Assembly (NCBI GenBank): GCA_903927685.1
Contig: CAIYOB010000528.1
Span: 1-9,593 of the forward strand
Reading direction: 5' to 3'
DNA length: 9,593 nucleotides
Source of the DNA: an uncultured Planctomycetaceae bacterium
GTDB lineage: Bacteria; Planctomycetota; Planctomycetia; Pirellulales; Pirellulaceae
The position numbers and the translations under genes were made by a program. This document shows positions 1-9,593 of this stretch, in pieces. Each line of letters begins with the position of its first letter. The first letter of the stretch is position 1. The notes below the pieces were generated by a model. That model was not told the origin of the DNA and made no database searches. It worked only from the letters and a program-made list of their open reading frames with translations.

Positions 1-1131
1 ATGCTGAAGCTACGGGGCGGAAATCCCAAGACGCCGCAATTCGTTTACGGCGAGCCGCGTTTCGTAACCAGACTTGAATGGGAAGAGCAAGCGCGACATC
101 ACGGCGTTCGACGCCAACGTCCGCCCAGGTCGGCAAAGTCGGTGGCGGACACCAACACGACCGCACCTGACGCCATCGAGGGTGCCGCCCAACCGAGCGA
201 AAGCTCGACGCCGACAGCGACCGACGCTGTAGCGGCCGTGATGGACGATCCGGAGTTGGGCGATCTCGTGGCCAAGATGGTAAGCATGGCCCACGACAAG
301 GGGCCACACGATTTCCGGACGTTCATCCAACTGGCCGTGCAATCACTCGGAGCGGACCTTGCTGAACGGATTGGCCCGGGTCTGGAATGGGCCTGGGAAC
401 TCGTTCGAAAAGAAGCCGATAGTTCCGGCCGAATGACGCCCGCCAAATCCGTTGCTGCGATCGTTGCCGGGATGCGCGCTGGTAACCCGTCCAAAGGCAG
501 AACAGGCACACACACCCAACACGGCAGGCGCGGAGGCGAACTCGCTGCCAGACACGACGCCGTGACGGACGGCCCCAGGGGCAGGTCAGACAACCGCTGG
601 ACCGGCGGCAAGGCCCACTTGGTATTTCCCACTCTTCCGCCAGATCTTCGCGGCCAAAGCGGGGCGGTGTTTCAGAGTTTCGTATTCAGCGAGGACGTCG
701 GCCAAGAGGTCGCGTTGTTTCTGCTCGACGCCCCGGACTTCGCCCGCCGACTCGGCGGATTGAAGCCATTTCGCCTTGTCGCCAAGTGCGGCGTGGTCGA
801 AACGAGCGCCGGGATGATCGCCTACATCTTGTGGTCCGTCAGCGGCGCCCGCGGTCACGTCGTGGATTACGAGCAGCTGTTGAACCTCTTCAACCCGAAG
901 GTCATGGATCTGGTTGCCGCCGCTGCCAGCCAAAGCCGGCTAAGAGTCGTCATCCTCGACTCCCATTCGAGTAAGGCCGAAGGGTTTCTTGAATGCGAGA
1001 ACAACTTCGGACTGGACGAATTCGCGTCAGTGCTGGGACAGATCCGGCGGCGGGAAACGCCGACTGACTTCCAGGAAACGCGAACCGCGTTCTTCGCGGA
1101 GTTCACGCTCGAAGAACTCAAGGAAGCTTAA
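1..1131 (+). CDS. Unknown protein, 376 residues, possibly 5' partial
   Basis: I do not recognise this family. The frame is open from the first base, which is an ATG, so the true start may lie outside the window; no upstream ribosome binding site can be seen. Residues 1-80 are charged and low in complexity (rich in R, T, S, A). Residues 80-160 look helical, starting with MDDPELGDLVAKM. Residues 160-200 form a G/R-rich linker. Residues 205-376 look like a compact alpha/beta domain with hydrophobic strands such as RLRVVILDS and acidic patches, ending in EFTLEELKEA. There is no signal peptide or membrane segment. A small membrane protein follows 40 bases downstream on the same strand and may be cotranscribed. 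The third-position GC bias fits real coding. No function is proposed. Confidence 0.72.
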   Translation: MLKLRGGNPKTPQFVYGEPRFVTRLEWEEQARHHGVRRQRPPRSAKSVADTNTTAPDAIEGAAQPSESSTPTATDAVAAVMDDPELGDLVAKMVSMAHDKGPHDFRTFIQLAVQSLGADLAERIGPGLEWAWELVRKEADSSGRMTPAKSVAAIVAGMRAGNPSKGRTGTHTQHGRRGGELAARHDAVTDGPRGRSDNRWTGGKAHLVFPTLPPDLRGQSGAVFQSFVFSEDVGQEVALFLLDAPDFARRLGGLKPFRLVAKCGVVETSAGMIAYILWSVSGARGHVVDYEQLLNLFNPKVMDLVAAAASQSRLRVVILDSHSSKAEGFLECENNFGLDEFASVLGQIRRRETPTDFQETRTAFFAEFTLEELKEA

Positions 1132-1599: not shown

Positions 1600-2037
1600 T
1601 CACACCTCGTTACCGCTTTGCGCAGCCCTGCGAACGATCGCCCCGACGGTTTGGTGTGACCATGCGTGACCGGACCGGCAGGGAATCCCAACAGTGTTCA
1701 GTCCACGGGCGATGGCCCGGTAGCTGTTGCCGTCCGCAGCACCGCGGAGGATCGTATCGCGTACCCGTTGTTCGTCGGGCCTCGGCACAAGCCGCCAGGG
1801 CCGAGACGGATCGACCGCCCAGCCATAGGGCGGAATGGAAGAAACCCGCCGTCCGGCGTCCTGACGCGCCAGCATGGTGGCAGATGTCCGCCGCCCGACC
1901 CTAAGACGCTTCTCCGCCGCGACTCGCTCGTCATGTTTGCCAAGTAGTTCGACGATGCACTCGACAAGCCACGCGTCGTACCGGTCAAGCCGCAGCAGCG
2001 ACCTTGCCTTGCGGTAATCGGTCACAAGACTGCCCAT
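1600..2037 (-). CDS. Serine-recombinase 'Recombinase'-domain protein lacking the catalytic domain
   Basis: A 145-residue protein. Residues about 63-139 resemble the DNA-binding 'Recombinase' domain of large serine recombinases. They carry RRVSSIPPYGW, then a proline-rich turn with RLVPRPDEQRV, then SYRAIARGLNTVGIP and a WSHQTVGAIVRRA helix. In full-length enzymes this domain follows an N-terminal resolvase domain with a catalytic serine. Here it is preceded only by about 60 residues starting MGSLVTDYRKARSLLRLDRY, with no resolvase motif. AAGGA lies about eight bases before the ATG, so the start looks genuine and the gene looks like a compact stand-alone unit rather than a random break. It could bind recombination or operator sites without cutting DNA. 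It could also be a decayed recombinase tail that acquired a start. Confidence 0.65.
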   Translation of the reverse strand: MGSLVTDYRKARSLLRLDRYDAWLVECIVELLGKHDERVAAEKRLRVGRRTSATMLARQDAGRRVSSIPPYGWAVDPSRPWRLVPRPDEQRVRDTILRGAADGNSYRAIARGLNTVGIPCRSGHAWSHQTVGAIVRRAAQSGNEV

Positions 2038-2794: not shown

Positions 2795-2998
2795 TCACGC
2801 GGTAGGATCGTGTCCCGCCCCGATGAGCGCGAGGATCGCGGTCTTGGTCTGGCGTGGCAGGCTTGGCCAATGTTCGGCGACGAGGGCCAATTCCGGGTCG
2901 AGATGCCGGTTCTCTGCATCGGGCGCTGCGCCACGCGCTGCGCCGTCGCAAGAAACCCCGCTTTTCCCAGCGATTTCGGGGCTTTCTTGCAGACTCAT
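2795..2998 (-). pseudogene. Tail of an integrase-associated planctomycete protein
   Basis: Residues 33-60 (LDPELALVAEHWPSLPRQTKTAILALIG, shown here only as a motif region) fit a pattern I associate with C-terminal segments near integrases in planctomycetes: D-x-x-L-A-x-x-x-x-x-W-P-x-L-P followed by a hydrophobic helix ending ILALIG. The only in-frame ATG near it is the complement of the CAT anticodon of the tRNA fragment at 2992-3036. The first codons also run through a terminator-like hairpin. That start is therefore doubtful, and the segment is more likely a remnant whose upstream part was cut off at the attachment site than an intact 67-residue gene. The link to integrases is recalled family knowledge, not shown here. 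Confidence 0.35.
2948..2990. terminator. Terminator-like hairpin beside the tRNA fragment
   Basis: GCAAGAAACCCCG (2948-2960) pairs with CGGGGCTTTCTTGC (2977-2990) apart from one bulged C at 2982, with a 16-base loop. The outer arms are A/T-rich on both sides, so the hairpin could act in either direction. It directly abuts the tRNA fragment, as expected at the end of an inserted element. Confidence 0.45.
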
Positions 2999-3036
2999 AA
3001 TCCCTTGGTCGGGGGTTCGAATCCCTCCGGGCCTAC
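2992..3036 (+). other. 3' part of a tRNA (anticodon CAT): probable att site scar
   Basis: The segment contains an anticodon loop CTCATAA (2995-3001), a variable region TTGGTC, a full T-arm with TTCGAAT (3016-3022) closed by a five-pair stem, and a 3' acceptor strand CGGGCCT plus discriminator A. The 5' side is not tRNA: bases before 2992 do not pair with the anticodon stem beyond two positions, and no D-arm or 5' acceptor is present. Tyrosine integrases commonly recombine in the anticodon-to-3' part of tRNA genes and leave such a copy. The loop would fit elongator Met or lysidine-type Ile tRNA. The complete integrase begins about 1.9 kb away; whether it made this scar is inference. Confidence 0.65.
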
Positions 3037-3130
3037 TTTCCCTAACTCGCTGCGCCGCAACGACAAGCGGCGATATCTCCCGACGACGTCCAGAGTTGTC
3101 GCGACCGCCAACACGCCACTTTCGGTGCAA

Positions 3131-4955: not shown

Positions 4956-6200
4956 TCACGTCCCCGTAGCCCGTAGCCTGGGACGGGGCTTACTTTCCGG
5001 CACGGCGGGCAACGCCTCCACGGCAGCCACCTGGTCCAAGACGCCCAACATCGTGTAGGTGTTCATCGTCAGGTTGATGTCCGAGTGGCGGGCCAGCAAC
5101 TGGGCCGTCTTCGGCGCCGCGCCCGTCCGCGTGAGGTTCGTGATGAAAGTCTTCCGCAACGCGTGGAAGTCGGCGTAGTGGCCCTGGTCGTCCACATAGG
5201 CCAGGAACGATGACTTCTCGCGGCGTTTCCGCTCTTGTTCGTCGTCGCCCCCCTCTTTGATCCACGCAGTTCGTGCCGCCTCGAGGTCCTTGCGGATCAT
5301 TTTCGATGTGCGTCGGTCCGCGATGTCGAACAACGGCTCGGTCGGCGACACGTCTGGCTTGCTGGCCAGCCAGGCCTGAATGCGTTCCGCAAAGTCGCGC
5401 CGCAAGGGCAGGACATCGACGCGGCGACGTTTGGAGTACCCCGCCTGCACGGTCACGATCGGCGGGTCGGATTCGAAGTCGAACGAGCGCGTCGTCACCG
5501 ACCCGATCTCGCCCCGACGGTAACCGGTGTACGCCCCGACGATGTACAGGATCGCCCGATCCGGCCCGGGAATGCATTGGATCGACGGTCCCACCTCGGC
5601 GGCTTCGATCAACCGCGCGAATTCTTCCATCGACAGCGGCCGCCGCACCCGCCGTCGATCCGTGTCCTCGTTCAGCCGTGACATGTGGGCCAGGCGGTCC
5701 TCGTTCGTCCGGCAGTCGCGGACCAGCCACCGCGTGAACATCTTGATCGCCCGCAGGTAGTGGTTGCTGGTGGCGGTGCTCCTGTCATTGGCCCGCAGTT
5801 GCGCCAGGTACTCCTGGACACGACTGGGCGAAATTTGGTTGATGCGTTCGAACTTGCAGGCTTCGATGATGGCCAGTGCCCGCTGTTTGGTCTTCTTGAT
5901 GTGCGAATCCGTCGTGGCCTTGTTCTCGAGGTACTTGATGAAGTCGTCAAGGTGGTCTTTGAGTGGCCGCCGTTGATGCTTGTCGAACGGATCTTCCAGT
6001 CCCGCCGCCATGCGCTCGGCCTTCTTGACCAAGCCGGCCAGCATCGTTTGGGCCGCCGCCCGGTCGGTTGCCAGAGGCACGCGCCGCTCGTCTCCGTTTT
6101 CATCCCGGTAGCGCCCCCACCATTTCCGCGACTTGGCTTTGACCTTGGTGCCCGTCTTTGGATCAGTCACCAGAACCGGTTTCTTGTACAGACTTGCCAT
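4956..6200 (-). CDS. Tyrosine recombinase (phage-type integrase), complete
   Basis: A 414-residue site-specific integrase that would cut and rejoin attachment sites through a covalent 3'-phosphotyrosine. The N-terminal part (residues 1-70, with WWGRYRDENGDERRVPL) resembles an arm-site-binding domain. Residues 75-170 form the SAM-like core-binding domain. Residues 185-390 form the catalytic domain. The catalytic set is intact: R228 in TGYRRGE, K257 in the SKRRR hairpin, H346 and R349 in HALR, H372 in LLARHSDIN and nucleophile Y382 in TMNTYT. AAGGAG lies nine bases before the ATG. The length is normal for phage and island integrases. It lies 99 bases downstream of the small HTH gene, in the same direction, and has its own terminator. 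The likely target is a tRNA gene; the CAT tRNA scar at 2992-3036 is one candidate. Confidence 0.95.
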   Translation of the reverse strand: MASLYKKPVLVTDPKTGTKVKAKSRKWWGRYRDENGDERRVPLATDRAAAQTMLAGLVKKAERMAAGLEDPFDKHQRRPLKDHLDDFIKYLENKATTDSHIKKTKQRALAIIEACKFERINQISPSRVQEYLAQLRANDRSTATSNHYLRAIKMFTRWLVRDCRTNEDRLAHMSRLNEDTDRRRVRRPLSMEEFARLIEAAEVGPSIQCIPGPDRAILYIVGAYTGYRRGEIGSVTTRSFDFESDPPIVTVQAGYSKRRRVDVLPLRRDFAERIQAWLASKPDVSPTEPLFDIADRRTSKMIRKDLEAARTAWIKEGGDDEQERKRREKSSFLAYVDDQGHYADFHALRKTFITNLTRTGAAPKTAQLLARHSDINLTMNTYTMLGVLDQVAAVEALPAVPESKPRPRLRATGT

Positions 6201-6560: not shown

Positions 6561-6908
6561 TCACGCGCCTTCCAGCCAGCCGTCCAATCCCCACGCGGTG
6601 AACTGCTCCCGGATGCGGGCAATGCGGCGATTTACGGTGTGCCAGTCACAGCCCAACTGGTCGGCGACTCCCTGAATCGAGTAGCCCAGGCTCAAGGCTT
6701 CGCAGATCTCGCGGTCACGCTTTGAGAGCTGACCTACCGCCGCCTGGACGACTGGTGCACGGGAAACCCGAAGTGTTTCACGTGCAAGATCAAGGCCCAG
6801 TACCGCCGCACCCGCCGCGAATTGTTCCCGCTGCTCAGCCGCATCCAGAACATCGGGTACGACCTGGGCGAGAACAACCGAACGCCAGAGTGGTACCGCG
6901 CGAACCAT
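6561..6908 (-). CDS. Sigma-70 region-4-like HTH protein, N-terminus doubtful
   Basis: The last 55 residues are convincing: LSKRDREICEALSLGYSIQG, then VADQLGCDWHTVNRRIARIR and a terminal LDGWL. This is a helix-turn-helix of the sigma-70 region 4 / LuxR kind, as found in small sigma-like regulators of mobile elements. Upstream of about 6731 the codon bias of this frame weakens, while the opposite strand shows strong coding bias (6726-6977). The ATG at 6908 and the GTG at 7067 both lack a Shine-Dalgarno sequence. I therefore suspect a 5'-truncated gene whose start is now chimeric. It ends 15 bases before the HTH gene, which suggests one transcript with it and the integrase. Confidence 0.55.
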   Translation of the reverse strand: MVRAVPLWRSVVLAQVVPDVLDAAEQREQFAAGAAVLGLDLARETLRVSRAPVVQAAVGQLSKRDREICEALSLGYSIQGVADQLGCDWHTVNRRIARIREQFTAWGLDGWLEGA

Positions 6909-6977
6909 CGCACGCCGTGGGTAGCGCCGCAGTTGGCGGTTCGGGAGTTCTTGTGTCCGGTCCCGGTCGGGCGGTGA
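6726..6977 (+). pseudogene. C-terminal remnant of a protein, perhaps a glycosyltransferase
   Basis: The frame is open after a stop at 6723-6725 and ends with TGA at 6975-6977. It encodes about 83 residues but has no ATG or GTG start. Third codon positions are overwhelmingly G or C, much more so than in the opposite frame. The peptide is rich in aromatic and cysteine residues: LDDWCTGNPKCFTC, ELFPLLSRIQNIGYD, RTPEWYRANHRTPWVAP. The SRIQNIGYD stretch recalls the C-terminal part of some family-2-like glycosyltransferases, but this is a weak memory-based match. It looks like a gene that lost its 5' part at a junction near 6730. Alternatively it uses a CTG start at 6729, which I think unlikely. 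Confidence 0.45.
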
Positions 6978-7182
6978 CAGCACTCCCGTTGGCCGCGACG
7001 AAGGGGAGCCGGGGACTCGAAGTCTTGAGATGCAATCAGGTTCGCGCCTGTAAAGTTTCGAACACACGGGAATAAAACCGCCGCTTCGAGCGTCTTATCT
7101 TCTGAGGGTTGCGCGAGAATTCTTGCGAACCTTCGGGCCGGCTGCCTCGTCCTAATAACAGCGACGGACAGTAGCCCCCAGC

Positions 7183-7197
7183 GGCGACGCGGTCGCC
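7183..7197 (+). promoter_or_regulatory. Hairpin just before the leader ribosome binding site
   Basis: GGCGAC (7183-7188) pairs with GTCGCC (7192-7197) over loop GCG, ending five bases before the AGGAGG at 7202-7207. It is the first structured element of the leader before the tRNA array. Upstream, 6978-7182 shows no gene; I could not find a promoter with good -35 and -10 boxes at proper spacing. Confidence 0.4.
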
Positions 7198-7218
7198 CCA
7201 GAGGAGGAGATGCCAAAA

Positions 7219-7320
7219 ATGATGTCCTTGTGGTCGAGTTACATTCGCGAGCAGAAATGCACGGGGCATTTCGCCGGTCAACCGGCGAATACCCTCCCCG
7301 TGCGCCACTGGCGCTTGTGA
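7219..7320 (+). CDS. Short leader ORF before the tRNA array, 33 residues
   Basis: AGGAGG at 7202-7207 is a near-perfect ribosome binding site. ATGs at 7210, 7219 and 7222 are in one frame; 7219 has better spacing (11 bases) than 7210 (two bases). The peptide from 7219 is MMSLWSSYIREQKCTGHFAG and on to LPVRHWRL, ending with TGA at 7318-7320. It has no recognisable domain. The coding region runs through two strong hairpins, and its stop codon overlaps the 5' arm of a possible antiterminator. This layout resembles leader peptides of attenuated operons. Translation is not proven; the ORF could be chance open sequence over structured RNA. Confidence 0.4.
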   Translation: MMSLWSSYIREQKCTGHFAGQPANTLPVRHWRL

Positions 7321-7367
7321 CACTCGGCCATCGAAGTAGCGGGACTTTTGCCAAAGCCCGGTGTCAC
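7259..7367 (+). promoter_or_regulatory. Nested hairpins and candidate antiterminator
   Basis: Outer stem: GCACGGGG (7259-7266) with CCCCGTGC (7296-7303). Inner stem: TTCGCCGG (7270-7277) with CCGGCGAA (7282-7289), loop TCAA. Next hairpin: GCGCC (7302-7306) with GGCGC (7310-7314), which shares two bases with the outer stem, so the two compete. Then GTGACAC plus CGG (7317-7327, one bulged T) can pair with CCGGTGTCAC (7358-7367). The last pairing would consume part of the 5' arm and the loop of the terminator at 7353-7388, so it excludes the terminator. Drawn by hand; energies not computed. Confidence 0.45.
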
Positions 7368-7388
7368 AGAAGACGCCGGGCTTTTTTT
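7353..7388 (+). terminator. Rho-independent terminator immediately before the tRNA array
   Basis: AAAGCCCGG (7353-7361) pairs with CCGGGCTTT (7376-7384) over a 14-base loop, followed by a run of seven T (7382-7388). It points rightward and ends four bases before the first tRNA gene. It either shields the array from upstream transcription or works as a conditional terminator for a transcript that enters the array. Confidence 0.82.
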
Positions 7389-7392
7389 GTTC

Positions 7393-7464
7393 GGGTCGGT
7401 AGCTGAGACGGTGTAGCACCTGGCTGAAAACCAGGAGACGAGGATTCGAGCACCTCCCGACCCA
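7393..7464 (+). tRNA. tRNA-Phe (anticodon GAA)
   Basis: Acceptor GGGTCGG/CCGACCC, seven perfect pairs, discriminator A. Anticodon loop CTGAAAA on stem CCTGG/CCAGG puts GAA at 7426-7428. The T-arm has TTCGAGC, but its last pair is A-A (53-61) instead of G-C, a weakened T-loop. First gene of the array, four bases after the terminator. Confidence 0.9.
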
Positions 7465-7492
7465 CTGTGATCGCGGTGCGCGCAGTCCACGA

Positions 7493-7566
7493 CAGAACGT
7501 GGCGAAGCCTGGTATCGCGCCAGGTCGGGGACCTGGAGATCGCCGGTTCAAATCCGGCCGTTCTGA
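7493..7566 (+). tRNA. tRNA-Pro (anticodon GGG), C33
   Basis: Acceptor CAGAACG/CGTTCTG with the C1-G72 pair typical of bacterial Pro tRNAs, discriminator A. The D-arm GCGAAGCCTGGTATCGC is also Pro-like. The loop TCGGGGA on stem CCAGG/CCTGG gives GGG at 7527-7529, with C at position 33 (7526) where U is expected. T-loop TTCAAAT is normal. Confidence 0.85.
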
Positions 7567-7577
7567 CTGGAGACACG

Positions 7578-7650
7578 CGGGCAGAGGTGCAGATGGTAGC
7601 ACGCCTGCTTTGGGAGCAGGAGGTTCCCGGTTCGACTCCGGGGTGCCCGA
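7578..7650 (+). tRNA. tRNA-Pro (anticodon TGG)
   Basis: Acceptor CGGGCAG/GTGCCCG with C1-G72, but a G-G mismatch at 7-66. Position 8 is A instead of U. Loop TTTGGGA on stem CCTGC/GCAGG gives TGG at 7611-7613. D-stem GTGC/GCAC and T-loop TTCGACT are good. Confidence 0.9.
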
Positions 7651-7658
7651 CTGGAAAC

Positions 7659-7730
7659 GGTAGTCGAGGGCTGGTCGCCCGGACCTGTCCGATGAACAGG
7701 TGACGCTGAGTTCGATTCTCAGGACTACCA
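7659..7730 (+). tRNA. tRNA-Ile (anticodon GAT), C33 and short D-loop
   Basis: Acceptor GGTAGTC/GACTACC perfect, discriminator A. Loop CCGATGA on stem CCTGT/ACAGG gives GAT at 7691-7693 with C33 (7690). Position 8 is G. The D-arm GGGC/GCCC encloses only five bases, much shorter than normal. T-arm CTGAG/CTCAG with TTCGATT is normal. Confidence 0.8.
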
Positions 7731-7802
7731 CTGGAACCGGAAATGAAGGAACACGCGATGTTGCTGCGACCGCGATTGAAACGCATACGCCCGACCAACT
7801 CC

Positions 7803-7875
7803 GGGGTCGTGGTGTAACAGGCAGCACGGCGGACTTTTAATCCGTACGGTGTGGGTTCGATTCCCTCCGGCCCTA
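7803..7875 (+). tRNA. tRNA-Lys (anticodon TTT)
   Basis: Acceptor GGGGTCG/CGGCCCT with G1-U72 wobble, discriminator A. Loop CTTTTAA gives TTT at 7836-7838. T-arm TTCGATT has one T-T mismatch at 50-64. The 72-base spacer before it (7731-7802) is the longest in the array; it has a 19-codon ATG frame from 7758 that runs into this tRNA, probably by chance. Confidence 0.9.
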
Positions 7876-7880
7876 CTCGC

Positions 7881-7953
7881 TGGCGCGTAGCTCAGCGGTG
7901 AGAGCGGCGTCCTTATAAGACGCAGGCCGAGGGTTCAACTCCCTCCGCGCCGA
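7881..7953 (+). tRNA. tRNA-Ile (anticodon TAT)
   Basis: Acceptor TGGCGCG/CGCGCCG with a T1-G72 wobble. D-arm GCTC/GAGC and T-arm GAGGG/CCCTC are perfect. Loop CTTATAA on stem GCGTC/GACGC gives TAT at 7914-7916, which reads AUA directly. Most bacteria instead read AUA with a CAU tRNA modified to lysidine. Five bases separate it from the previous gene. Confidence 0.9.
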
Positions 7954-7960
7954 CTGATTC

Positions 7961-8033
7961 GGGACTGTGGCAGACAGGGTAATGCACCGGTCTCTTAAAC
8001 CGGAACATGCGGGTTCGATGCCCGCCGGTCCCA
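7961..8033 (+). tRNA. tRNA-Lys (anticodon CTT)
   Basis: Acceptor GGGACTG/CGGTCCC with one T-G wobble, discriminator A. Loop CTCTTAA on stem CCGGT/ACCGG gives CTT at 7994-7996. T-arm CGGG/CCCG with TTCGATG is good. Confidence 0.92.
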
Positions 8034-8048
8034 CTGACGAAGCGACAT

Positions 8049-8120
8049 GCACTGGTGGTCTAGAGGCTAAGACGCCGCACCCGTACTGCGGTGACGAGGG
8101 TTCGACTCCCTCCCGGTGCT
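8049..8120 (+). tRNA. tRNA-Thr (anticodon CGT by position), C33
   Basis: Acceptor GCACTGG/CCGGTGC with G1-C72 and C2-G71 as in Thr tRNAs, discriminator T. Loop CCCGTAC on stem CCGCA/TGCGG gives CGT at 8082-8084 with C33 (8081). The D-arm GTCTAGAGGCTAAGAC looks like that of Glu tRNAs, so the gene may be an anticodon-changed Glu relative. T-arm GAGGG/CCCTC is perfect. Confidence 0.78.
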
Positions 8121-8122
8121 CT

Positions 8123-8136
8123 TAGTTCTTTGACAA
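8123..8136 (+). promoter_or_regulatory. boxA-like antitermination sequence in a tRNA spacer
   Basis: TAGTTCTTTGACAA lies in the 32-base spacer between Thr and Gly. It matches the rRNA-operon boxA (TGCTCTTTAACA in E. coli) at about nine of twelve positions and keeps the CTTT-ACA core. boxA is bound by NusB/S10 and supports long untranslated transcripts. It also contains TTGACA, but no -10 box follows at usable spacing. Confidence 0.35.
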
Positions 8137-8152
8137 TTCGGCTTCCAACCAA

Positions 8153-8223
8153 GCGCCCATGATGTAGCGGCAGCCTGTCGCCTTGCCATGGCGGAAGTGC
8201 GGGTTCGACTCCCGCTGGGCGCT
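8153..8223 (+). tRNA. tRNA-Gly (anticodon GCC)
   Basis: Acceptor GCGCCCA/TGGGCGC perfect, discriminator T as in bacterial Gly tRNAs. Loop TTGCCAT on stem TCGCC/GGCGG gives GCC at 8185-8187. T-arm GCGGG/CCCGC is perfect. The D-arm is poorly paired. Confidence 0.88.
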
Positions 8224-8242
8224 CTCGCGAAGGCGTTCTTTT

Positions 8243-8316
8243 CAGGACGTGGGAAAGCCTGGGATTCCGCGTGCTTCGGGCGCACGAGATCGCCGGTTCA
8301 AATCCGGCCGTCCTGA
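8243..8316 (+). tRNA. tRNA-Pro (anticodon CGG)
   Basis: Acceptor CAGGACG/CGTCCTG perfect with C1-G72. D-arm GGAAAGCCTGGGATTCC. Loop TTCGGGC on stem CGTGC/GCACG gives CGG at 8277-8279. Its 3' half is almost identical to that of the GGG tRNA at 7493-7566 (shared GATCGCCGGTTCAAAT), so the two are probably duplicates that diverged. With the GGG and TGG genes the array covers all Pro codons. Confidence 0.93.
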
Positions 8317-8323
8317 CCTTGAT

Positions 8324-8398
8324 TGCGGTGGGGCCTGTGTTGGTACGGGCGGGCGCCTGTTAAGCGTCACGTCGCAGGTTCGATTCCTGCCACCGCAG
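8324..8398 (+). tRNA. tRNA-Asn (anticodon GTT)
   Basis: Acceptor TGCGGTG/CACCGCA perfect, discriminator G as in bacterial Asn tRNAs. Loop CTGTTAA on stem GGCGC/GCGTC gives GTT at 8359-8361. T-arm GCAGG/CCTGC is perfect. Position 8 is G instead of U. Confidence 0.9.
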
Positions 8399-8404
8399 CC
8401 TTCC

Positions 8405-8489
8405 GGAAGGGCAAGCCAACTGGCGATGGCACCCCGTTCGAAGCGGGACGAGCCTCACGGCCTTGAGGGTTCGACTCCCTCCCTTTCCG
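8405..8489 (+). tRNA. tRNA-Ser (anticodon CGA), long variable arm
   Basis: Acceptor GGAAGGG/CCTTTCC with one wobble, discriminator G as in Ser. Loop TTCGAAG gives CGA at 8439-8441. A class II variable arm of about 16 bases lies at 8449-8464. T-arm GAGGG/CCCTC is perfect. Position 8 is C. Confidence 0.9.
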
Positions 8490-8496
8490 CCTGCAC

Positions 8497-8568
8497 GTGC
8501 CCGTGGCCGATCGGCTCAGGCACCAGCCTTCCAAGCTGGACAGGCGGGTTCGATTCCCGCCGGGCACT
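8497..8568 (+). tRNA. tRNA-Gly (anticodon TCC)
   Basis: Acceptor GTGCCCG/CGGGCAC perfect, discriminator T as in Gly. Loop CTTCCAA on stem CCAGC/GCTGG gives TCC at 8530-8532. T-arm GCGGG/CCCGC is perfect. Confidence 0.93.
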
Positions 8569-8585
8569 CTGGACGCAATCTTCAT

Positions 8586-8661
8586 TCCGGGGTCGTCGCT
8601 GTTGGTATGTGATGCGTGACTTTGAATCACGAGGCCGCAGGTTCGATTCCTGCCCCCGGAG
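8586..8661 (+). tRNA. tRNA-Gln (anticodon TTG)
   Basis: Acceptor TCCGGGG/CCCCGGA perfect with the weak T1-A72 pair and discriminator G that mark bacterial Gln tRNAs. Loop CTTTGAA on stem CGTGA/TCACG gives TTG at 8622-8624. T-arm GCAGG/CCTGC is perfect. Confidence 0.92.
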
Positions 8662-8673
8662 CCTTGGCGACGA

Positions 8674-8693
8674 ACTTGTCGCGAGGGACAAGT
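8674..8693 (+). repeat. Perfect hairpin in a tRNA spacer
   Basis: ACTTGTC and GACAAGT, seven pairs, enclose a six-base loop inside the 53-base spacer between the two Gln tRNAs. There is no T-run, so it is not a standard terminator. It may be a processing signal or a relic of a lost tRNA. Confidence 0.4.
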
Positions 8694-8714
8694 GTCATCA
8701 GCAGAAGAAACCGA

Positions 8715-8785
8715 TGCGGGGTCGTTCAACGGTAGGACGGGACGCTCTGAACGTCTTGATGTTGGTTCGATTCCAGCCCCCGCAG
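8715..8785 (+). tRNA. tRNA-Gln (anticodon CTG)
   Basis: Acceptor TGCGGGG/CCCCGCA perfect with T1-A72 and discriminator G, as for Gln. Loop CTCTGAA on stem GGACG/CGTCT gives CTG at 8747-8749. T-arm GTTGG/CCAGC with one wobble. Confidence 0.92.
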
Positions 8786-8792
8786 CTTGCAC

Positions 8793-8875
8793 GGAAGTCA
8801 TCCGGCTGGATGAGGAACCTGTTTTGAAAACAGGCCGCGGCTCTGCCGTTGTGGGTTCGAGTCCCACGGCTTCCG
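8793..8875 (+). tRNA. tRNA-Ser (anticodon TGA), long variable arm
   Basis: Acceptor GGAAGTC/GGCTTCC with one wobble, discriminator G. Loop TTTGAAA on stem CCTGT/ACAGG gives TGA at 8825-8827. Variable arm of about 16 bases at 8835-8850. T-arm GTGGG/CCCAC is perfect. Position 8 is A, and the D-arm is atypical: ATCC/GGAT pairs around only four bases. Confidence 0.9.
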
Positions 8876-8885
8876 CCTGCAGCAC

Positions 8886-8956
8886 ACGTCCCTGGTGTAA
8901 TGGCAGCACGACTGGCTCCAACCCGGTTAGTCAGGGTTCAAGTCCTTGGGGGCGTG
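8886..8956 (+). tRNA. tRNA-Trp (anticodon CCA)
   Basis: Acceptor ACGTCCC/GGGGCGT with A1-T72 and discriminator G, the bacterial Trp identity set. Loop CTCCAAC on stem ACTGG/CCGGT gives CCA at 8918-8920. D-arm GTG/CAC. The T-arm CAGGG/CCTTG has a wobble. Confidence 0.9.
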
Positions 8957-8960
8957 CCTT

Positions 8961-8976
8961 GGGCGAACCTTCGCCC
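8961..8976 (+). repeat. Short perfect hairpin between Trp and Ala
   Basis: GGGCGA pairs with TCGCCC over an ACCT loop in a 27-base spacer. A second pairing, GCCC (8973-8976) with GGGC (8984-8987), would sequester the 5' end of the Ala tRNA. It is possibly a processing signal. Confidence 0.35.
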
Positions 8977-8983
8977 TTCGTTC

Positions 8984-9054
8984 GGGCTCATGGTCCAACA
9001 GGACGACGCCAGCTCCGCACGCTGGAGATCCGGGTGCGACTCCCGGTGGGTCCA
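8984..9054 (+). tRNA. tRNA-Ala (anticodon CGC), C33
   Basis: Acceptor GGGCTCA/TGGGTCC has a G3-T70 wobble, the main Ala identity signal, and discriminator A. Loop TCCGCAC on stem CCAGC/GCTGG gives CGC at 9016-9018 with C33 (9015). The T-loop reads TGCGACT, so position 55 is G instead of U. The D-stem has one mismatch. Confidence 0.8.
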
Positions 9055-9068
9055 CTGCACACAACGAC

Positions 9069-9141
9069 GGTCCCGTGGTCTAGCGGCGAAGACACCTGGC
9101 CCACATCCAGGGAACCGATGGTTCGAGTCCATCCGGGACCA
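9069..9141 (+). tRNA. tRNA-Val (anticodon CAC), C33
   Basis: Acceptor GGTCCCG/CGGGACC perfect, discriminator A. Loop CCCACAT on stem CCTGG/CCAGG gives CAC at 9102-9104 with C33 (9101). T-arm GATGG/CCATC is perfect. The D-arm resembles that of the Thr(CGT) gene (TGGTCTAG). Confidence 0.82.
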
Positions 9142-9146
9142 CTTTG

Positions 9147-9220
9147 GCCCAGATACGCCAACTGGTAGAGCGGCTCGGCTTAAACCCGCGCGGTTGCAGG
9201 TTCGAGTCCTGCTTTGGGCA
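9147..9220 (+). tRNA. tRNA-Leu (anticodon TAA), short variable arm
   Basis: Acceptor GCCCAGA/TTTGGGC with one wobble, discriminator A, which fits Leu. Loop CTTAAAC gives TAA at 9181-9183. The variable region is only five bases (9191-9195), whereas bacterial Leu tRNAs have a long arm. The anticodon stem has a T-C mismatch at 28-42. T-arm GCAGG/CCTGC is perfect. Confidence 0.82.
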
Positions 9221-9234
9221 CTGGCGAACGAGAC

Positions 9235-9308
9235 GGCTCGGTAGGCAAGTGGCAGACCACCCTGGCTTAGAACCAAGGATGCTGTGGGTTCGAGTCCCAC
9301 CTGAGCCA
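9235..9308 (+). tRNA. tRNA-Leu (anticodon TAG), short variable arm
   Basis: Acceptor GGCTCGG/CTGAGCC with one wobble, discriminator A. Loop CTTAGAA gives TAG at 9268-9270. The variable region is six bases (9278-9283), so class I, unlike normal Leu. The anticodon stem has a C-A mismatch at 28-42. T-arm GTGGG/CCCAC is perfect. Confidence 0.84.
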
Positions 9309-9323
9309 CTGAAGAAGGCACAC

Positions 9324-9398
9324 GCCCTTGTGGAGCAGCCCGGAGTGCTCGCCACCCTGTCACGGTGGAGATCGCGGGTTCAAATCCCGTCGAGGGCG
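9324..9398 (+). tRNA. tRNA-Asp (anticodon GTC)
   Basis: Acceptor GCCCTTG/CGAGGGC with one wobble and discriminator G, as for Asp. D-stem GAGC/GCTC perfect. Loop CTGTCAC on stem CCACC/GGTGG gives GTC at 9359-9361. T-loop TTCAAAT. Confidence 0.92.
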
Positions 9399-9405
9399 CT
9401 GGCAC

Positions 9406-9483
9406 AGCACGGTACGCAAACCGGTGAAGCGGCGAAGCTCAAACCTTCGTGATCGTTTGTGGGTTCGACTCCCATCCGTGCTA
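9406..9483 (+). tRNA. tRNA-Leu (anticodon CAA), nine-base variable region
   Basis: Acceptor AGCACGG/CCGTGCT perfect with A1-T72, discriminator A. Loop CTCAAAC on stem CGAAG/CTTCG gives CAA at 9440-9442. The variable region (9450-9458) is nine bases without a stem, between class I and class II. T-arm GTGGG/CCCAT with a wobble. Confidence 0.85.
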
Positions 9484-9500
9484 CTGGCCGAGAACAACAC

Positions 9501-9581
9501 GCGTCGGTTGGGCATTGGCAAGCCTCGGTGGCCGTAACCCACTCGCCTCCGGCTGTGCAGGTTCAACTCCTGCCCGACGCA
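9501..9581 (+). tRNA. tRNA-Tyr (anticodon GTA), C33
   Basis: Acceptor GCGTCGG/CCGACGC perfect, discriminator A. Loop CCGTAAC on stem GGTGG/CCACT gives GTA at 9534-9536 with C33 (9533). A 13-base variable arm is present, as in bacterial class II Tyr tRNAs. T-arm GCAGG/CCTGC with TTCAACT. Last tRNA in the window; the trailer begins CTG as after other members, so the array probably goes on. Confidence 0.85.
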
Positions 9582-9593
9582 CTGATCTGAGGC

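Follow-up and report, generated by a model that had tools for sequence, protein, structure and literature searches.

An array of 24 tRNA genes in an uncultured Planctomycetaceae bacterium, six of which have C instead of the near-universal U at position 33 (C33), is best explained, with a probability of roughly 0.7, as the inducible reserve tRNA operon of a planctomycete integrative element. Its leader would act as a ribosome-mediated attenuator that senses the loss of tRNAs that the array supplies. C33 itself would be a loop variant that is tolerated, and perhaps selected, where the anticodon is strong (G/C-rich). It would be a by-product or a fine tuning in reserve tRNAs that see little use, and not the key to the system. 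The window, meaning the whole stretch of DNA analysed, is 9,593 nucleotides long (Table 1).

The tRNA array and its mobile element

ARAGORN called 23 tRNA genes at 7393-9582, and Rfam added Ala(CGC) at 8984-9054 as the 24th, which ARAGORN also reports at a 90% threshold. A tRNA array unit has at least 20 tRNA genes at a density of at least two per kb; here, 24 genes lie within 2.2 kb. The array is placed on mobile DNA by an integrase and a tRNA-Met(CAT) fragment. The integrase is 66-67% identical to relatives in L002, L003 and L004, and a relative was present at only 3 of the 86 array loci searched. The fragment, a probable attachment-site remnant, shares 97.8% identity across 46 nt with a chromosomal tRNA-Met of G001 (L016) and 95.5% across 44 nt with the tRNA-Met near the integrase relative in L003. 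An 81-residue helix-turn-helix protein is possibly the excisionase.

Defence-system searches of seven window ORFs with PADLOC returned small matches only (mad1, 2.7e-7; CARF3, 1.8e-4). Among the phage and plasmid matches listed, at most 5% of the array was covered, and no record reached 80%. Within one class, an array-type tRNA-Ser probe found matches in 100 of 397 genomes sampled.

Table 1. Features of the window, with the base at position 33 in related arrays where compared.
Feature	Position	Strand	Remarks
tRNA-Met(CAT) gene, 3' part	2992..3037	+	nucleotide identity to chromosomal tRNA-Met
Tyrosine recombinase (integrase)	4956..6200	-	Pfam PF00589, 2.1e-15
Helix-turn-helix protein, 81 aa	6300..6545	-	Pfam HTH_17, 2e-5, slightly under cut-off
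Promoter-like GAACCTT-N-CGTC	7127..7151	+	upstream of leader
Leader ORF, 36 codons + TGA	7210..7320	+	sequence MPKMMSLWSSYIREQKCTGHFAGQPANTLPVRHWRL; AGAGGAGGAG immediately before ATG
Predicted antiterminator 5' strand	7315..7324	+	TTGTGACACT; overlaps leader stop codon
Predicted intrinsic terminator	7354..7388	+	12-bp hairpin + T run, just ahead of first tRNA
tRNA array, 24 genes (Phe to Tyr)	7393..9582	+	ARAGORN + Rfam; may extend past window end
tRNA-Pro(GGG)	7493..7566	+	C33 at 7526; L004 and L138 likewise C33
tRNA-Ile(GAT)	7659..7731	+	C33 at 7690; L004 orthologue U33
tRNA-Thr(CGT)	8049..8120	+	C33 at 8081; 11/25 array Thr(CGT) with C33
tRNA-Ala(CGC)	8984..9054	+	C33 at 9015; L004 likewise C33
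tRNA-Val(CAC)	9069..9141	+	C33 at 9101
tRNA-Tyr(GTA)	9501..9582	+	C33 at 9533; L083 and L136 C33; L004 U33

The leader and its predicted switch

The leader is preceded by a motif that we take to be an ECF sigma type promoter. Of 64 leaders, 37 have a match to GAACY-N14-20-CGTC in the 150 nt upstream, compared with 6 of 379 control windows. The 36 codons of the window leader sample 19 of the 20 amino acids, and Asp is the missing one although the array carries tRNA-Asp. The predicted antiterminator helix has 10 nt pairing with 7360-7369 (p 0.006 against shuffles), and its 3' strand GGTGTCACAG is overlapped by the 5' arm of the terminator. Rfam placed no known leader here at gathering score, and no T-box was found at that score or at E values up to 1 within 7080-7400.

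Such leaders stand before many arrays of relatives. The first 21 were discovered by eye and post hoc; 19 of these end at the switch with ORFs of 26 to 36 codons, and two more have 34 and 52. Across 14 pairs, pN/pS was 0.75 in frame versus 0.94 and 1.15. In 14 representatives of the 21 leaders, pairing between the stop region and the terminator arm exceeded that of shuffles (combined p 4e-12). L072, L088, L089 and L220 have a weak switch, and a leader was not seen in L074, L082, L090, L091 (upstream masked) or L105.

A held-out set was taken from 60 places on the tRNA-Ser probe list, in list order and without the members of the first set; L310 and L313 among them lacked a cluster of at least three tRNAs. 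A detector score of at least 14 was reached at 38 of 61 held-out arrays and at 0.5% of 1,500 random positions. Leaders went uncalled in 17 of the 61, five of which start less than 200 nt from the end of the stretch. Tests of own-versus-other pairing (z 9.3) and of folding (58/61 versus 257/610 shuffled) are both inflated, because pairing is what the detector selects for and the first leaders had been chosen by inspection. The leader called in L304 (score 12.0) is probably incorrect. In L257 the switch is weak (8.0), yet the peptide MNFLRSCESEQQAERERQSEQSEQSSSSLALS suits the Glu, Gln and Ser of the array there. In phage and viral arrays, no leader scored 12 or more in the four that were testable; L070 begins too near its end.

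Leader amino acids and array isotypes

In the first set, leaders covered 95.5% of the isotypes of their own arrays versus 80.4% (0.867 versus 0.719 at codon level). This comparison used 11 of the 21 leader/array pairs; the others were either closely homologous or had arrays in which few tRNAs were called. The match was then predicted beforehand for the held-out set, where the calling rule took no account of composition (44 candidates, nine dropped as at least 50% alike). In the 35 dissimilar leaders it gave z 8.5, with 0 of 10,000 permutations as extreme. For example, L306 (score 17.6) has the leader MFACFSSSASSQRRSQSSAQCASQRAASSLRQLRSSC and an array of Gln, Ser, Leu, Ala, Ser, Arg and Cys, while L294 (score 15.8) has MTSYSCSSNSLRSSDSFVLWASSVTAARLRL and an array of Ser, Trp, Leu, Val and Ser. 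Some held-out leaders have homologues in the first set. A test that pooled and filtered both sets, with 45 leaders less than 40% alike, gave an odds ratio of 5.4 (z 9.0, p 1e-19).

Homologous arrays have leaders in common, and lineage together with base composition could produce the match incidentally. One wrong-frame test did reach z 2.1, from a range of -1.1 to 2.1 for the other frames. This explanation is nevertheless very improbable: the match survives the 40% similarity filter and holds within GC quartiles (z 8.0 and 6.8) and array-size tertiles, while in the held-out set the two other frames and the reverse strand (z 0.9) show none.

The match is incomplete in Thr, Cys, Trp and Val, as it is for Asp in the window. 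Among the 45 leaders, Thr is present in 15 of 20 when the array has Thr versus 18 of 25 when it does not, and Cys in 5 of 11 versus 19 of 34. Trp (5/16) and Val (12/23) are often absent from the leader when in the array, and Arg is present in all 45.

Proposed attenuation mechanism

Three hallmarks of an attenuator can be read from the DNA: a translatable leader ORF, mutually exclusive predicted antiterminator and terminator hairpins, and leader codons that match the product of the operon. What follows about transcription, ribosome stalling, the switching itself and its natural inducer is inferred. The leader RNA would start at the presumed ECF-type promoter and encode a short peptide; the amino acids that this requires, and largely the codons as well, are those served by the tRNAs of its own array. 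With all sampled tRNAs available, a ribosome would reach the leader stop codon and cover the antiterminator strand, the terminator would form and the array would be off. Were a sampled tRNA missing, for instance because a toxin or anticodon nuclease had cut it, the ribosome would stall upstream, the stop region would pair with the terminator 5' arm, and the array would be transcribed. Once fresh tRNAs had relieved the stall, the operon would return to its off state. Because the stop codon and the antiterminator strand share bases, only a ribosome that has finished the leader should favour termination.

The layout resembles the trp, his and leu attenuators, which respond to charging, and the leader could likewise sense amino-acid starvation or general translation stress. 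This is an improbable alternative to the sensing of tRNA loss: starvation would not be cured by additional tRNA, and leaders track the isotypes of their own arrays.

C33 across planctomycete arrays

All six C33 sites lie exactly where the sequence-only reading had placed them. As it described, the 5-bp anticodon stems are paired, and each closes a loop of 7 nt; the other 18 of the 24 array tRNAs have U33. Of the 118 array tRNAs in four relatives, 16 have C33; of their 173 chromosomal tRNAs, none does (Fisher p = 2.8e-7, with related tRNAs treated as independent). The chromosomal set comprises ARAGORN calls in four genomes; two of these calls, both with U33, come from L101 and may be remnants of an array. 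The tRNAs at the array margins of L083, L082, L085 and L136 were placed in neither set, and none has C33. One candidate chromosomal C33 tRNA, a Pro-GGG in L098, sits after an integrase-like reading frame in a second element copy in G001, so it was dropped from the chromosomal set and counted with the arrays. An integrase relative was confirmed in L138. C33 is thus a real feature of planctomycete tRNA arrays, beyond chance or genome habit.

Of 1,297 distinct array tRNAs, 1,152 have U at position 33, 138 have C, 7 have G and none has A. C33 becomes more frequent with the number of G/C bases in the anticodon, from 0/87 at zero to 22/487, 89/578 and 27/138 at one, two and three (not corrected for kinship), and it occurs in 38 of 80 tRNAs with G38. 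The earlier observation of G or C at position 34 stands for all six window tRNAs, but elsewhere it is a tendency only: C33 accompanies G34 in 64/487, C34 in 45/336 and U34 in 28/460, the last contradicting any rule that limits C33 to G34 or C34. Homologous arrays with U33 throughout had been named as the case against the observation, and part of the relatives are of this kind; at least one C33 occurs in 30 of 34 large held-out arrays (at least 15 tRNAs) and in 7 of 27 small ones.

Random decay was already doubted in the sequence-only reading, and this doubt is upheld by the near-exclusive pyrimidine at base 33, the better stems of C33 tRNAs and the recurrence of the same isotypes. All five anticodon-stem pairs are present in 94% of C33 versus 84% of U33 array tRNAs, and C33 recurs in diverged arrays in Leu(GAG) (27/41), Pro(GGG) (8/12) and Glu(CTC) (16/32). 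Pseudogene decay was rejected as the cause, because stems are intact and C33 is kept in the same isotypes. It is possible, at less than even odds, that C33 is functionless and reflects relaxed selection with G+C-biased mutation in rarely used tRNAs. U to C at 33 is a transition, stem mismatches are commoner in array than in chromosomal tRNAs of the four relatives, and across 34 large arrays the C33 fraction climbs with the G+C content of the locus (rho 0.52, p 0.0017), a correlation suggesting that mutation pressure contributes. Set against this are the better stems of C33 genes, the return of C33 in the same isotypes of diverged arrays and the fact that other isotypes in the same arrays are without C33.

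Position 33 adjoins the cleavage sites of several anticodon nucleases, and nuclease resistance was one role proposed in the sequence-only reading. In the four genomes C33 occurs only in tRNAs carried by elements, and phage arrays also show it, in valine tRNAs. Anticodon-loop mutations in phage tRNAs have been argued to give nuclease escape in the portions of PMC10264068 consulted, although its main text does not contain "U33", "C33" or "position 33". The counts lend this role no support: C33 is rare in Lys (0/62), Asn (0/47), Asp (0/32) and His(GTG) (1/36) and scarce in Tyr (4/22). We take these five isotypes to be the classic anticodon-nuclease targets, which may differ from those of planctomycete nucleases. 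C33 follows anticodon strength instead, and resistance is a rather unlikely explanation.

Another proposed role was as decoys, and for this the analysis gave evidence neither for nor against. Editing of C33 to U33 by a cytidine deaminase, also proposed, is very unlikely. C-to-U editing of tRNA occurs in other systems, but a Pfam scan found no deaminase among eight window ORFs, and editing leaves the link with anticodon strength unexplained. Tuning or tolerance of strong anticodons appears to fit the pattern better than editing or decay.

Significance

Why phages, plasmids and islands carry whole tRNA sets is an old open question. The leading idea, that they replace tRNAs destroyed by defence nucleases, has so far lacked a regulatory signature. 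If the present reading is true, leader codons that list the tRNAs of their own array would be that signature: the peptide would be a readable list of array tRNAs, telling what the operon senses, and the operon would fire when just those are destroyed. The replacement idea would become testable with one reporter. The arrays also provide natural material for judging how far from U position 33 can stray in tRNAs maintained by selection. The broadest form of the claim stands at about an even chance: that planctomycetes widely carry self-regulated reserve tRNA operons, with leader peptides that list the tRNAs behind them, so that an operon fires on the destruction of just these as an anti-nuclease response, and with working C33 elongators that break the U33 rule for strong anticodons.

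Comparison with known systems

Dense multi-isotype tRNA arrays on mobile DNA are shared with the tRNA array units and clusters of mycobacteria, phages and plasmids (PMC5966550, PMC6515697, PMC12803027). The "degenerate tRNA gene clusters" of Planctomycetes, as presented in the consulted part of PMC4807772, are the same kind of object as the window array. Neither a leader nor an attenuator is mentioned in the consulted portions of PMC12803027 and PMC4807772. Phage nuclease-evading tRNAs, according to the sections of PMC10264068 consulted, are likewise element-borne, with altered anticodon loops and the purpose of replacing lost host tRNAs; here, by comparison, a leader would regulate them and C33 follows anticodon strength, not known cleavage targets. 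The literature searches listed no report of such a tRNA-array attenuator.

The trp, his, leu and ilv operons have ribosome-mediated transcription attenuators of amino-acid operons, which share with the present system a short leader ORF with meaningful codons, a mutually exclusive antiterminator and terminator, and a U tract. Here, however, tRNA genes would be controlled instead of biosynthesis, the leader codons name many isotypes, namely the ones encoded by the array downstream, and the stop codon shares bases with the antiterminator strand. T-box leaders also make a tRNA-linked choice of terminator or antiterminator, whereas this leader has no Rfam T-box match and its sensor would be a translated ORF. 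Finally, in the extended anticodon, positions 32-38 are tuned to codon-anticodon strength for uniform tRNA binding; the planctomycete arrays would share this adjustment of loop bases to codon-anticodon strength, but in them position 33 itself varies.

A leader and putative switch upstream of the array

A leader ORF, an antiterminator strand and a terminator precede the tRNA array in the window, with 4 nt between terminator and tRNA-Phe, and the arrays of relatives are preceded by an identical layout despite quite different sequences.

Features of the window
Feature	Position	Strand	Remarks
376-aa ORF	1-1131	+	no Pfam match
145-aa ORF	1600-2037	-	partial serine Recombinase domain (Pfam)
tRNA-Met(CAT) 3' end, 46 nt	2992-3037		97.8% identity to an intact tRNA-Met of G001, a relative's genome
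Integrase	4956-6200		Pfam PF00589
168-aa ORF	6561-7067	-	part resembling helix-turn-helix / sigma-70 region 4 (below the Pfam cut-off)
Leader ORF	ATG 7210 to TGA 7320		immediately upstream of array; AGAGGAGGAG precedes ATG
Antiterminator strand TTGTGACACT	7315-7324		contains leader TGA; can pair with GGTGTCACAG (7360-7369)
Terminator	7354-7388		12 bp and T run; 5' arm overlapped by GGTGTCACAG strand
tRNA array	7393-9582	+	23 genes by ARAGORN
tRNA-Ala(CGC)	8984-9054	+	additional array gene, from Rfam

Across 14 representatives of the 21 leaders of the first set, found by eye, pairing between the stop region and the leader's own terminator arm exceeds shuffles (combined p 4e-12), with poor values at single loci (0.67 for L072 alone; L088, L089 and L220 weak). 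For 58 distinct leaders, own arms score 18.6 vs 15.1 for others' arms (z 9.3), and the transcript up to the terminator's 3' arm adopts the antiterminator fold in 58 of 61 cases vs 257 of 610 shuffled ones; choosing the leaders by eye or through their pairing inflates both values. A fair control is given by the detector background at random positions: scores of at least 14 are reached by 38 of 61 arrays vs 0.5% of 1,500 random positions. Of the 64 leaders, 37 are preceded by a promoter-like GAACY-N14-20-CGTC, which we take to be of the ECF sigma factor type; 6 of 379 control windows contain it. In the window, the 168-aa ORF adjoins this site, directly upstream.

Leader codons match the tRNAs of the array

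In the first set (11 pairs), leaders contain 95.5% of the isotypes of their own arrays vs 80.4% of those of other arrays (p 1e-5), and the match holds at codon level (0.867 vs 0.719). The prediction was recorded before 60 new regions were analysed. A composition-blind rule gave a candidate leader in 44 of their 61 arrays, of which 35 dissimilar ones were used. Here, residues in own isotypes reached 0.732 vs 0.634 (z 8.5) and isotypes covered 0.896 vs 0.769 (z 6.5), each with 0 of 10,000 permutations as high. The other two frames of the same DNA gave z -1.1 to 2.1, and the reverse strand 0.9.

Pooling 64 leaders and keeping 45 that were less than 40% alike gave an odds ratio of 5.4 (z 9.0 when stratified by amino acid), and the match persisted within GC quartiles (z 8.0 and 6.8) and array-size tertiles (7.2 and 6.3). 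Among these 45, Thr showed no effect, Cys trended slightly in the opposite direction, and Arg was found in every leader. Trp, Val and Lys are often missing from the leader of an array that has the isotype, being present in only 5 of 16 cases for Trp, 12 of 23 for Val and 17 of 27 for Lys. The window leader lacks Asp, yet its array has tRNA-Asp; it also has Cys, Glu, His and Arg, none of which the truncated array shows. Leader sequence is weakly conserved apart from composition (pN/pS 0.75, 14 pairs), as expected for a codon list.

Of the 17 held-out arrays with no called leader, five begin less than 200 nt from a stretch end and three are second clusters of a region. The rule made no call at L258, L266, L268, L278 and L283, where a similar stop-and-hairpin stretch is seen by eye. 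In the first set, no leader was seen by eye in L074, L082, L090, L105 or L091, the last masked upstream.

C33 in array tRNAs

The sequence-only reading had reported C instead of U at position 33 in six window tRNAs: Pro(GGG), Ile(GAT), Thr(CGT), Ala(CGC), Val(CAC) and Tyr(GTA). These sites are exact to the base, within 7-nt loops and paired 5-bp stems, and the remaining 18 tRNAs have U33. CCA is not encoded in the array genes. In 22 of 23 ARAGORN tRNAs as parsed, the discriminator base is followed by C and then T or CT; the parse of the other, Ser-CGA, is off by one base.

In four relatives read for array and chromosomal tRNAs (G001, G267, G390, G308), C33 occurs in 16 of 118 array tRNAs vs 0 of 173 chromosomal ones. 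Widening the sample by 60 regions gave 1,297 distinct array tRNAs, with related tRNAs counted as independent: U in 1,152, C in 138, G in 7 and A in none. Since all but these 7 have a pyrimidine at 33, array genes, including those with C33, look to be under selection as tRNAs. The anticodon stem has all five pairs in 94% of C33 genes, and among array genes with U33 in 84%.

C33 is isotype-specific, as in Leu(GAG) (27/41), Pro(GGG) (8/12), Ala(CGC) (4/8), Glu(CTC) (16/32) and Thr(CGT) (11/25). It is absent from array Lys (62), Asn (47), Asp (32), Trp (30), Phe(GAA) (42, or 41 without G33 rows) and Leu with CAA, TAA or TAG anticodons (85). Escape from nucleases, one proposed reason for C33, fits badly with the isotypes that show it and is a less likely reading, and the proposed editing to U33 found no support. 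The C33 rate instead climbs as the anticodon gains G/C, from 0/87 at zero through 22/487 and 89/578 to 27/138 at three (per-anticodon Spearman 0.55, p 1e-4, 44 anticodons). Such a link with strong anticodons would be predicted by the extended-anticodon, or uniform-binding, idea: strong codon pairing would make a looser turn tolerable or useful. C33 is more frequent, too, where local G+C is higher (rho 0.52, 34 large arrays), and G+C pressure surely contributes.

C33 is also linked to G38 (38 of 80 G38 array tRNAs vs 68 of 906 with A38), and many tRNAs with both are Leu(GAG) with the loop TCGAGAG. Four phage stretches have C33 in 3 of 70 tRNAs, valine only: Tonenili 2/26 (Val(CAC) and Val(GAC); L216 at 12704 and 15491), Rctr197k 1/31 (Val(GAC); L219 at 10600), Quantum 0/10 and ME3 0/3. 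Two viral contigs have none in 27 tRNAs.

The probable mobile element and its relatives

The window integrase is 66-67% identical to those in three assemblies, two of them labelled planctomycete, and five more loci resemble it, partially or more distantly. In L003, about 330 nt separate an integrase relative from a tRNA-Met gene of the kind whose 3' end lies in the window. From these arrangements, the window most likely represents one end of an island that inserted at tRNA-Met. The 145-aa and 376-aa ORFs lie beyond this probable end.

A homologous array with the same start occurs in L004, from an assembly labelled Planctomycetaceae, and a tRNA-Ser(TGA) probe had matches (E up to 1e-9) in 100 of 397 genomes from the class to which one relative belongs. 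ORF-sized inserts lie among the L004 tRNAs at 11810-12240, 13960-14370 and 14590-15190, the last presumably resembling an HNH endonuclease (motif by eye). The same genome carries a second element copy (L138; G001, contig C555), in which tRNA-Pro(GGG) with C33 comes after the integrase relative. G267 has at least four separate tRNA clusters (contigs C9, C19, C30 and C67), two with near-identical leaders (L083, L136).

Proposed mechanism and known systems

The array leader has the parts of a classical attenuator and differs from it in one respect: its antiterminator strand spans the leader stop codon. Because of this placement, a ribosome that has finished the leader peptide would favour termination, and an earlier stall, or no leader translation, should leave the array on. 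If tRNA loss were the cause, array tRNAs for those amino acids would repair it, and the natural inducer may thus be anticodon nucleases or toxins.

Among the tRNA array and attenuator papers listed in searches of mainly open-access literature, none connects the two subjects in its title or abstract, and an earlier description may exist. Degenerate tRNA gene clusters are described in many Planctomycetes (PMC4807772). Elsewhere, nuclease evasion has been proposed for phage tRNAs (PMC10264068), and mycobacterial tRNA arrays are presented as a putative antidefence system (PMC12803027).
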